Source of the DNA: an uncultured Elusimicrobiales bacterium
GTDB lineage: Bacteria > Elusimicrobiota > Elusimicrobia > Elusimicrobiales > Elusimicrobiaceae
Reading direction: 5' to 3'
Length of the DNA: 64,000 bases
Assembly: GCA_944327085.1 (NCBI GenBank)
Contig: CALVGG010000002.1
Coordinates: 62,001-126,000 of the forward strand
Positions 7,645 to 11,117 of the stretch are shown piece by piece. Position 1 is the first letter of the stretch; every line of letters starts with the position of its first letter. The notes beneath the pieces are model-generated. The model saw only the letters and a program-made list of their open reading frames with translations, was not told the origin of the DNA and made no database searches. A program made the position numbers and the translations under genes.

Positions 7645-8910
7645 ATGGTATTAGGGCTAAAAAATAAACAAATGTTTTTGGGCGTGCTGTTAGCCTCCTT
7701 ATTATTGGGCGGGCAGAGCCCGCTTTGGGCGCAGCGCGGCGGAATAAAAAAAATGTATAAACGGGCTGCGGGTGCAGCCGCACGTGTATATCCCGAAGAG
7801 AGCGCCAAAAAAGCCGCTAAATTAATGGGTGCGTCTTCGGTTAAGTTGCCGTCTTCTTTCCCGGTTAAAAAACAAACGGCTCCTTCCATAGAGCAATTGC
7901 GCCGCAATTTGGCCGAGCTGGAAAATTTACAAAAAAATTTATTGGAACAAAAACAGTTTTTAGAAGGCCAACAACTAACCCGCCTGGCCGTGTTTCAGGC
8001 CATTGCACAGGGTAAAGGCCCCGTAAATACCTATTCCGGCACGGTTTTTAAAACGGTTTACCGCGGGAAAGAAGAAGTTTTTGGGGTAATAGCCACACAT
8101 GCATTGGTAACCCAGCCCCATATGCCGGGTGTACTGGGCAAATCTTTCCGCGTGGCCGTGGTGCGTGACGGGCAAGTGCATGTTATCCCGGCACAGGTGG
8201 TGCTGGCCACCTCCCGCAAACTGTTGGATATTGCCTTGGTAAAATTCCGCCCGCAAGACGAAGCCCTTTTTACCCCTTTGCGTTTGGGCAATTTAAAAAA
8301 GACGGATAAAGAAGTGTATTCCCACGGGTTTGCCTGCGGCCTGCCGGCAACCCTTTCTTCCCGCGTAATAAAAGAAGTTTCCCCTTGGATGATAAAAACC
8401 TCCATGCCGCTGCCTAAGGAAGACCGCTCCGGCCTGTGCGGCAGCGCTGTTTTAAATGCCCGCCATGAATTGGTGGGTATCCATACAGGCAGTACGGCTA
8501 ATCAAAACCCGGCTTTGGATACCGGTTTTGCCGTTCCTTCCTCTTTTTTGCTTCGCCTGGTAAATGCCTATCATCATGACGGTAAAGCTTCTTTGCCCCT
8601 GGTGTTAAACGGCACGCGTGTGGCTAAACTGAATGTGGATGAGTTTGTTTCTGGCGTGCAATTATTAAACGGGCAGGGGCAGCCTTTGTGGCAAAAGCAA
8701 ATAAACGGCAAATTTTCTGCCCGCCAGGTTGAAAAACAATTAAAACAGTTCCCGCAGGTGCGTTTTATCCGCTTAGAGATTGGCAAAAATTGGTGGAAAT
8801 CCCCCGCGCTAAACCATACGGAAACGGCCGTGTTGGAAGAAAATCCTTTAACCAGAACGGTTGTTTTTGACTGGAAAAATAAAAAAATGCTGGACGGAAC
8901 CATCAATTAG
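7645..8910 (+). CDS. Secreted chymotrypsin-fold protein with Cys nucleophile, copy 1
   Basis: 421 residues from 7645; an ATG at 7672 would give a shorter signal peptide. The signal peptide ends PLWAQ. A basic segment and a short coiled coil (about residues 85-115) precede a trypsin-like domain. The presumed catalytic residues, by pattern, are His152 (IATHALV), Asp195 (LLDIALVKF) and Cys265 (SGLCGSAVLN). The last motif aligns with the V8-protease motif GNSGSPV but carries Cys where Ser is expected, as in viral 3C-like proteases (GxCG). ELVGIHTGS after it is the usual substrate-pocket strand. The role is unknown, probably periplasmic or surface proteolysis. A paralog follows 50 nt downstream. 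Confidence 0.75.
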   Translation: MVLGLKNKQMFLGVLLASLLLGGQSPLWAQRGGIKKMYKRAAGAAARVYPEESAKKAAKLMGASSVKLPSSFPVKKQTAPSIEQLRRNLAELENLQKNLLEQKQFLEGQQLTRLAVFQAIAQGKGPVNTYSGTVFKTVYRGKEEVFGVIATHALVTQPHMPGVLGKSFRVAVVRDGQVHVIPAQVVLATSRKLLDIALVKFRPQDEALFTPLRLGNLKKTDKEVYSHGFACGLPATLSSRVIKEVSPWMIKTSMPLPKEDRSGLCGSAVLNARHELVGIHTGSTANQNPALDTGFAVPSSFLLRLVNAYHHDGKASLPLVLNGTRVAKLNVDEFVSGVQLLNGQGQPLWQKQINGKFSARQVEKQLKQFPQVRFIRLEIGKNWWKSPALNHTETAVLEENPLTRTVVFDWKNKKMLDGTIN

Positions 8911-8960
8911 CCCTTGTTTTTTTTACAAAAAACCCATAGGCTATTAAGATAGGAGTTATT

Positions 8961-10199
8961 ATGCGTTATATTTCTTTGTGTGTGCTTGCTTTGTGTATGT
9001 GCTCTTACGGTGTTTGGGCTCAAGGTTCAGCCGCCGGGAAGAGTTTGGCCCGCCGGTTGTTGGACAATGCAAAAAACTCCTCTTATCAAAATGCGGCTAA
9101 ACGTTTTTTGGGTGCGGGACAGGGGGCTTCATCCCGGCCTGCTGTCGGAAAGCCCGCCAATAACGAAGATGCCGCCGCCGTGCGCCAATCCTTAGAGGCG
9201 CGCATTGCTTCTTTGCGTGAAAAAAACCAAAGTTTACAAGCTCAAATTAATGCTTTAAAACAATCCGGCCGGTTGGACGGGGCCACTTTCCGCGCGTCAG
9301 AAAAGGACGAGCCTTTTGCCAGCGTTTTTTCCGGCACGGTGTTTAAAACCAAATATCACGGAAAAGAGGAAATTTTTGGCGTGGTGGCGGCCCATACCAT
9401 TGCGCCGGATGTGGCGCACTCTTCCCAGGCTTTACATAAAAACTTTTTTGTAGTGATGCATATCAATGGGCAAAGGAAACGTTTCCCGGTGGAAATTGTG
9501 CAAATATCCGCCCCCAGTATGCTGGATATGGCGCTGGTAAAGTTCCGCCCGGAAGATGAAGCCTTTTTAACCCCTTTAACCGTGCAGCCCACGGTGCGCA
9601 AAGGGGAGCCGCTGTATTCCCATGGGTTTGCCTCGGGTGAGGAAATGGAAGTGCCGCGGCAGGTGCTGGAGGAGTCTTACTTATCTTTCCGCACCACCAT
9701 TCCCGTCCCGCGGGAAAAACGCCCCGGCTTTTGCGGAAGCCCCGTTTTAAATGCCCGCCATGAGCTGGTGGGAATTCATACCGGCAGCGTGTATGAAAAA
9801 GCAGGTGAAAGCTGTGATATAGGGTTTGCCATGTCTGCCAAGTTTTTGGACGTATTGGTAAAGGCCTATCATAATGACGGGCAGGCGTTGTTCCCGTTAG
9901 TGGTGGATGGACATGTGCTGGCAAATATGAATGTGGATGAGTATGTGTCTGTGGTTACGATTTATGATGACAATATGCGCCAGTTGTGGCAGCAGGGGTT
10001 TGATTATAAATTTTCGCAGTCTAAGGTAGAGCAGGCTATACGCAGCATACCGCAAGCACGTTATGTGCTTACCACCACCCGCCGGGCTTACTGGGAAGAG
10101 GACGGCAAAATATTGACGGAAAACCGTTCCCGTTCCGATAAAACCAAAAAACGCTATAAATATGATTTGTGGGAAAAACAAATCGTAAGCGTAAAGTAG
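8961..10199 (+). CDS. Secreted chymotrypsin-fold protein with Cys nucleophile, copy 2
   Basis: 412 residues, paralogous to the preceding gene over the full length. Signal peptide ending GVWAQ; Lys/Arg-rich segment; predicted coiled coil at about residues 73-97 (LEARIASLREKNQSLQAQI). The protease-like domain has His145 (VAAHTIA), Asp189 (MLDMALVKF) and Cys258 (PGFCGSPVLN). Cys again takes the Ser position, so the substitution is conserved between copies and is not a sporadic loss. The C-terminal about 110 residues (from LPLVVDG-like FPLVVDGHVLANMNVDEYVS) form an extra domain also seen in copy 1. A TAGGAG ribosome binding site precedes the ATG; the gene is probably co-transcribed with copy 1. 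Confidence 0.75.
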   Translation: MRYISLCVLALCMCSYGVWAQGSAAGKSLARRLLDNAKNSSYQNAAKRFLGAGQGASSRPAVGKPANNEDAAAVRQSLEARIASLREKNQSLQAQINALKQSGRLDGATFRASEKDEPFASVFSGTVFKTKYHGKEEIFGVVAAHTIAPDVAHSSQALHKNFFVVMHINGQRKRFPVEIVQISAPSMLDMALVKFRPEDEAFLTPLTVQPTVRKGEPLYSHGFASGEEMEVPRQVLEESYLSFRTTIPVPREKRPGFCGSPVLNARHELVGIHTGSVYEKAGESCDIGFAMSAKFLDVLVKAYHNDGQALFPLVVDGHVLANMNVDEYVSVVTIYDDNMRQLWQQGFDYKFSQSKVEQAIRSIPQARYVLTTTRRAYWEEDGKILTENRSRSDKTKKRYKYDLWEKQIVSVK

Positions 10200-10289: not shown

Positions 10290-11117
10290 ATGAAAACTTC
10301 TTGTGCCAGGTTTACCCGTAAAGTTCTTTTATTGGCGGCTGTGTTGCTGTTTGGTGGGCTTTCTTGTTATGCGCAGAGCGCTTATCAGGTACTTAAAGCA
10401 GCCCGAACAGTAAAATATAAAATAGAGCCAGCCGGCGTTATTTCCCGCAATATTAAGGCGCCCATTACCTCGGCCCCGCTAGCCAAAAGAATCATCCAAG
10501 TTCACAATCCTGCCGCTCTTCGCGTATTTTCTGACTATCAAGTCATTCAAAACAAAAAGGATAAAATCTATCTGCCGCGTATTAACATCGTGGCGGAATA
10601 TCCAGTCCCTGTATTAAAAGATCCTTCCACGCTGTGGGGCAGTTACCGTTACTTACGGGTTTTAACATCTTTATATCGTGAAAATCCTTCCGCTATTGAC
10701 CCGGCTTACCAAGCCAAATGGAAACTGATTCATGATGTTACCTCTTACCGCGGGGTGCATCATATTGTTAACAAAACCACTTTAAAGCAAATCCATGAAA
10801 GAATGCGCAAAGAAGCGGTTGTAAATAATGAGACGTACGTGGTGCGTTTATCCCAAATGCAAAGTGATGCCCCGGGTTCTTTGCATCCTTTCCACGGTAA
10901 AGAAAAGTTTGGGTATATTTTCCACAATTCTCAGCGCCAGCTGGAACTGTACGAACAAGGCGGGGTAAAACTGATTTTGATGGATTATTTTAAATCCTTG
11001 CGCCAGCTGGCGAAAGACTACCCCGACCAAGCCCCCAAAATAAGCTTTCCGGTGGTTAAAAATACCTTTATGGAAGCCAAATTATGGTGTGAAACCTACG
11101 ATCTGCGTTGGGAATAA
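10290..11117 (+). CDS. Secreted protein of unknown function
   Basis: 275 residues from the ATG at 10290, chosen because it gives a Lys/Arg-containing n-region and a signal peptide ending CYAQ; an in-frame start 7 codons earlier is possible. After cleavage comes a basic Ala/Lys/Arg segment (YQVLKAARTVKYKI), the same design as the two upstream protease-like proteins. No catalytic motif is recognised in the remainder, which is predicted mostly helical with the charged C-terminus ETYDLRWE. It lies 90 nt downstream of the second protease-like gene in the same orientation and could be a substrate, inhibitor or partner of those proteins, but there is no direct evidence. Confidence 0.65.
   Translation: MKTSCARFTRKVLLLAAVLLFGGLSCYAQSAYQVLKAARTVKYKIEPAGVISRNIKAPITSAPLAKRIIQVHNPAALRVFSDYQVIQNKKDKIYLPRINIVAEYPVPVLKDPSTLWGSYRYLRVLTSLYRENPSAIDPAYQAKWKLIHDVTSYRGVHHIVNKTTLKQIHERMRKEAVVNNETYVVRLSQMQSDAPGSLHPFHGKEKFGYIFHNSQRQLELYEQGGVKLILMDYFKSLRQLAKDYPDQAPKISFPVVKNTFMEAKLWCETYDLRWE

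Follow-up and report, generated by a model that had tools for sequence, protein, structure and literature searches.

Cysteine peptidases of clan PA have been described from positive-strand RNA viruses (PMC6524800). The viral 3C and 3C-like enzymes (C3, C4, C30, C37, and others) combine the chymotrypsin fold with a Cys-His-Asp/Glu catalytic site and a His in the S1 pocket. In TEV protease, exchange of the Cys for Ser causes an about 10^4-fold loss of activity (PMC4576821). A survey of prokaryotic serine proteases, published in 2008, makes no mention of cysteine (PMC2605481), and no bacterial clan PA cysteine protease was found in the literature we searched, which left out most subscription journals. 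Two groups of cellular serine proteases are relevant here. The HtrA/Deg proteases (DegP, Deg8, AlgW, HtrA1; MEROPS S1C) are exported, contain the motif GNSGGP, and consist of an N-terminal segment, a protease domain, and a C-terminal accessory domain. V8 and the Spl proteases of Staphylococcus (S1B) require a free mature N-terminus, and the spl operon is a tandem set of exported paralogs. Moreover, HtrA-fold proteins can be repurposed, as is known for MamO (PMC4794232).

The window, that is, the whole analyzed stretch of 64,000 nucleotides from an uncultured Elusimicrobiales bacterium, contains two uninterrupted, adjoining open reading frames (7585/7645..8910 and 8961..10199, both on the forward strand; Table 1), the first of which has an alternative start at ATG 7585. 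Because only 50 bases separate them and AGGAG lies just 5' of the ATG of protein 2, we infer that both are probably co-transcribed. By eye, each protein starts with a typical Sec signal peptide whose hydrophobic stretch ends in ...VWA-QG (protein 1) or ...LWA-QR (protein 2). Both match Trypsin_2 (PF13365; 1.3e-7 and 32.9 bits for protein 1, 1e-8 and 36.5 bits for protein 2, cut-off 27.6 bits), show the order and spacing of His, Asp, and nucleophile typical of clan PA and Trypsin_2, and have a C-terminal domain of approximately 105 amino acids in common. An earlier note, made from sequence alone, had described the pair as trypsin-pattern proteins with a Cys nucleophile, a coiled-coil N-terminal region, and a shared C-terminal domain. 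Its triads (H152/D195/C265 counted from ATG 7645, H145/D189/C258 from ATG 8961) and nucleophile motifs (GLCGSAV and GFCGSPV) held exactly, the Pfam scores bear out the trypsin pattern, the N-terminal region has a helical segment with heptad-like hydrophobic spacing, and the shared domain is real.

Table 1. Features of the protease gene pair and the following gene (window positions).
Feature	Position	Strand	Remarks
Protein 1, 421 aa	7645..8910	+	Signal peptide, helical N-terminal region, chymotrypsin-fold domain with Cys nucleophile, C-terminal domain
His152 codon, protein 1	8098..8100	+	Putative general base
Asp195 codon, protein 1	8227..8229	+	
Cys265 codon TGC, protein 1	8437..8439	+	Predicted nucleophile
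His280 codon, protein 1	8482..8484	+	Predicted S1 residue (GIHTGS)
C-terminal domain, protein 1	8569..8907	+	
Protein 2, 412 aa	8961..10199	+	Architecture of protein 1 repeated
Long N-terminal helix, protein 2	9162..9266	+	Predicted; residues 68-102, heptad-like
Chymotrypsin-fold protease domain, protein 2	9279..9866	+	About residues 107-302
His145 codon, protein 2	9393..9395	+	
Asp189 codon, protein 2	9525..9527	+	
Cys258 codon TGC, protein 2	9732..9734	+	Predicted nucleophile, 85/85 in family alignment
His273 codon, protein 2	9777..9779	+	Predicted S1 specificity residue
C-terminal domain, protein 2	9867..10196	+	Residues 303-412, confident fold without PDB match
Neighboring secreted protein	10290..11117	+	Conserved HHIVNK and LHPFHG motifs; possibly on the same transcript as the proteases

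An AlphaFold2 model of protein 2, based on an 85-sequence alignment, is confident (pLDDT 90.1, pTM 0.79). A helix (residues 68-102) precedes a protease domain with a double barrel, which is followed by a C-terminal domain built of strands and one helix. His145 occupies a short turn that follows a barrel strand, Asp189 directly precedes strand 191-195, and Cys258 sits in the loop ahead of strand 261-263. Judged by secondary structure, as atomic distances are not part of the result, the model places all three residues in canonical chymotrypsin loops, with Cys258 in the nucleophile loop. The nearest solved folds in a Foldseek search of the PDB are HtrA/Deg proteases (E down to 2.5e-10), and in profile comparisons Deg8 scores best (1.5e-8), along with V8 (1.9e-7). 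Like HtrA/Deg, the proteins carry a signal peptide, an N-terminal segment, and a C-terminal domain behind the protease core; however, they have Cys instead of the Ser nucleophile, GIHxGS replaces the GINT segment of HtrA, and their genes form tandem arrays. With V8/Spl they share the alignable segment GxxGSPVxNExxExxGIHxG, in which C258 falls on the catalytic Ser of V8 and H273 on the His of its GIHWGG motif, and thereby also the S1 His (GIHxG) of Glu-specific V8-like endopeptidases. They differ from V8/Spl in the nucleophile, in the additional C-terminal domain, and in the 80-110 residues ahead of the protease domain.

The C-terminal domain also gives a confident model on its own (pLDDT 87, pTM 0.80), which has no match in the PDB (best E 0.6) apart from weak similarities to FAM3B/POMGnT1 with E above 1. 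Neither a Pfam family nor a PDZ domain was detected in it by the Pfam search. An assignment as PDZ was rejected, as full-length HtrA matches span this domain only at an rmsd near 10 Å and the domain alone matches nothing. The family thus differs from HtrA/Deg in this part as well. The protein encoded directly downstream of the pair gave neither a Pfam match above cut-off nor one in NCBIfam. It occurs in 26 of 66 genomes of the genus, directly after a protease gene in four species and elsewhere in most others, and was rejected as an obligate partner since it is unlinked in most genomes. Its two conserved motifs might form an HNH-like metal site, which is no more than a guess.

Across 85 diverse family members five alignment columns are invariant, namely H145, G256, C258, G259, and G275, and D189 is retained in 78; conservation of the Cys in all 85 is beyond chance. 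Within the genus, 197 of the 201 copies covering the nucleophile position have Cys (175 TGC and 22 TGT codons), and His is present in each of the 196 Cys copies that cover its position. The four remaining copies have Ala, Trp, Trp (these two being orthologs), and His, none of them Ser, and three of the four also lack the catalytic His (Fisher p 3e-6, with the copies not being independent). More diverged members from further genomes again contain Cys (GYCG, GMCG, GQCG). The profiles used in the search derive from Cys members and are biased accordingly; nevertheless, they still recovered Ser trypsins and HtrA with weak scores, and Ser members of the family would therefore have shown up. The genes are under strong purifying selection (dN/dS about 0.12-0.17), with values of 0.17 and 0.12 for the protein 2 ortholog pairs G000-G005 and G000-G062, respectively.

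Alternatively, the proteins might be pseudoproteases that retained the fold for binding, in a chaperone-like or regulatory role comparable to MamO, with the Cys being a frozen relic or a ligand-binding residue. For this speaks that the MamO structure is among the fold matches (5hma, TM 0.73 by target) and that a few members lack the Cys and/or the His. However, conservation is highest at His, Asp, Cys, and the GxCG loop in a family whose members mostly share only 20-40% identity with protein 2, His and Cys were lost together, and relics would not be expected to retain the triad over about 200 copies. MamO differs in its described repurposing for metal binding; the present family retains the triad, with Cys as nucleophile residue. 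We consider the pseudoprotease scenario unlikely. The earlier claim that the proteins are active and not relics is supported by the co-conservation of the triad, the usually joint loss of Cys and His, purifying selection, the alignment with the V8 Ser, and the model, with catalysis itself remaining an inference. Individual members might nonetheless be inactive or altered, as is possible for the copies without nucleophile and for an orthologous subfamily (loci include L014 5911-7059, L100 3461-4681, and L102 3420-4691) in which a change of the triad Asp to Asn is coupled with a change of the S1 His to Glu at position 273; 11 copies of this subfamily keep the Cys and one has Ala.

A structural or disulfide-bonded role of the Cys is conceivable in an exported protein, but can be all but excluded. 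The mature protein has no conserved cysteine besides Cys258, and beyond residue 30 this is the only Cys in 33 of the 85 members; a disulfide was therefore rejected on the distribution of cysteines. DsbA was not detected in the window genome either, by a search that was positive in 10 of 14 control genomes. This is compatible with a thiol that stays free outside the cytoplasm, which is plausible for an anaerobic gut bacterium.

V8, Spl, arterivirus nsp4, and 3C proteases recognize Glu or Gln at P1 through a His in the S1 site. The corresponding residue in the 197 Cys copies is mostly His (145), followed by Phe (16), Glu (11), Tyr (8), Val (6), Ile (5), and a few others. From His273/280 a specificity for Glu or Gln can be inferred for most copies, but this inference rests on a single aligned position without cleavage data. 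Evidence against it is that V8 and 3C carry a Thr five residues before the nucleophile, which is absent at that place in the window proteins. A four-gene array has the S1 residues H-F-E-H in four genomes (G012, G021, G035, G081), and arrays of the same type in G007 and G067 end with L or Y; most array positions therefore keep their own residue across species. We infer that arrays with differing S1 residues represent specialized specificities.

The pair is part of a larger family. The search for paralogs revealed 11 more copies in the 1.67-Mb window genome, and the 13 members form four tandem clusters with two (C2, in the window), three (C11), four (C4), and four (C1) genes. All 13 have the Cys and the His, and 12 the Asp, which is replaced by Asn in the other one. 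Matches were obtained in 45 of the 66 genomes of the genus, with at most 13 per genome and about 250 in total, a summed figure in which a few matches are fragments or the Ser relative. In a scan of public genomes the named matching contigs belonged to Elusimicrobia or to MAGs, several of which were obtained from gut samples of animals (rumen, yak rectum, horse faeces). A strong Trypsin_2 protein is also present in 65 of the 66 genus genomes and reads SSSGSP, with Ser, in those inspected. One further Trypsin_2 paralog (L235, G000:C2:360883-361272) has the nucleophile loop HIGGPL and is apparently inactive; similar proteins occur in related genomes.

In a tree of 67 protease domains all 49 Cys domains form one clade (bootstrap 100, SH-aLRT 98) with a single Ser/Cys change, and this clade persists when the motif is masked (98). 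The SSSGSP proteins fall outside. The clade includes domains that a sister genus carries within large open reading frames (1,077-5,734 aa), the largest of which hold several each, as well as one domain from a distant family within Elusimicrobiota. A bacterial origin by one Ser-to-Cys switch is likely, with the limitation that Ser relatives were sampled from Elusimicrobiota only, and so is the spread of the family within the genus by tandem duplication. Giant open reading frames of 3,000-5,700 aa with Cys-type trypsin domains, found in the sister genus and the distant family (L183 490-17691, reverse strand; L184 1-9660 and L189 3-10355, forward strand), have a layout resembling a polyprotein: L183 and L184 contain several such domains in one chain, L184 hydrophobic segments too, and L189 a low-molecular-weight phosphatase domain. 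A 1,371-aa protein (L130 1663-5775, forward strand) has a C-terminal Cys-type protease domain, and the region preceding it appears kinase-like by eye (GVVHGDTQYNLP...LYDLEP).

The domain could also have been taken from an RNA-virus 3C-type protease, since the nucleophile is identical and the GxCG...GxHxG segment is alike; like such enzymes, the proteins combine a Cys at the nucleophile position of a GxCG loop with the catalytic His. However, bacterial and organellar HtrA/Deg, V8, and Spl proteases lead the fold and profile rankings, and the best hits of a Foldseek search against viral models are trypsin-like and serine proteases, all ahead of 3C. The family is also bacterial, with signal peptides and stand-alone genes in tandem arrays. 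No relative was found in IMG/VR or phage records, and a viral origin was rejected on this basis and on the fold and profile searches, leaving it all but excluded. The comparison with viral 3C proteases made in the earlier note therefore held for the chemistry but not for the ancestry, the nearest relatives being bacterial HtrA/Deg and V8-like serine proteases.

Most likely, the family consists of active, exported thiol endopeptidases with an HtrA/V8 fold, a Cys-His-Asp triad, and diversified specificity. The analysis shows sequence, conservation, a confident predicted fold, and phylogeny; catalysis, specificity, oligomerization, location, and substrates are inferred. Both proteins would be exported via their signal peptides to the periplasm or the exterior, where His145/152 would activate the thiol of Cys258/265 for attack on the peptide bond, with the GxCG loop forming the oxyanion hole. 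The S1 His of most copies would favor Glu or Gln before the cut, and paralogs with Phe, Tyr, Glu, or aliphatic residues would cut elsewhere, so that the members of an array would differ in specificity. The N-terminal helix probably would serve assembly, and the C-terminal domain, in place of the PDZ of HtrA, would probably bind a substrate or partner. The lineage would descend from a bacterial serine protease in which Ser was exchanged once for Cys, and would then have spread by tandem duplication in the genus. A thiol nucleophile yields a thioester, which is easily aminolysed, and active Cys enzymes might therefore use the acyl-enzyme mainly for transfer instead of hydrolysis, for instance as a transpeptidase or ligase, or in the crosslinking of surface proteins. 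The export of the proteins would fit such a role, but no acceptor or sorting motif was identified and the nearest fold relatives are hydrolases, which renders it very unlikely.

As the searched literature describes clan PA cysteine proteases only for positive-strand RNA viruses, the proteins, taken as endopeptidases by inference, look like a new cellular variant of the chymotrypsin fold with Cys, judged from Elusimicrobiota alone. A bolder reading, towards which we lean with reserve, makes them the first cellular lineage among the clan PA cysteine peptidases. On this reading, Ser was exchanged for Cys a single time in Elusimicrobiota, in convergence with viral 3C, and the lineage radiated into arrays with different S1 residues and, in the sister genus, into several copies per giant protein. 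Exchange of Cys and Ser can cost much activity; this clade switched once, and Ser relatives exist in the same genomes. With it one can ask what changes in the second shell render the exchange workable, whether an anaerobic lifestyle favors the exchange, and whether chemistry of the 3C type had more than one origin. The arrays would provide a natural set of inferred thiol proteases with varied S1 pockets.
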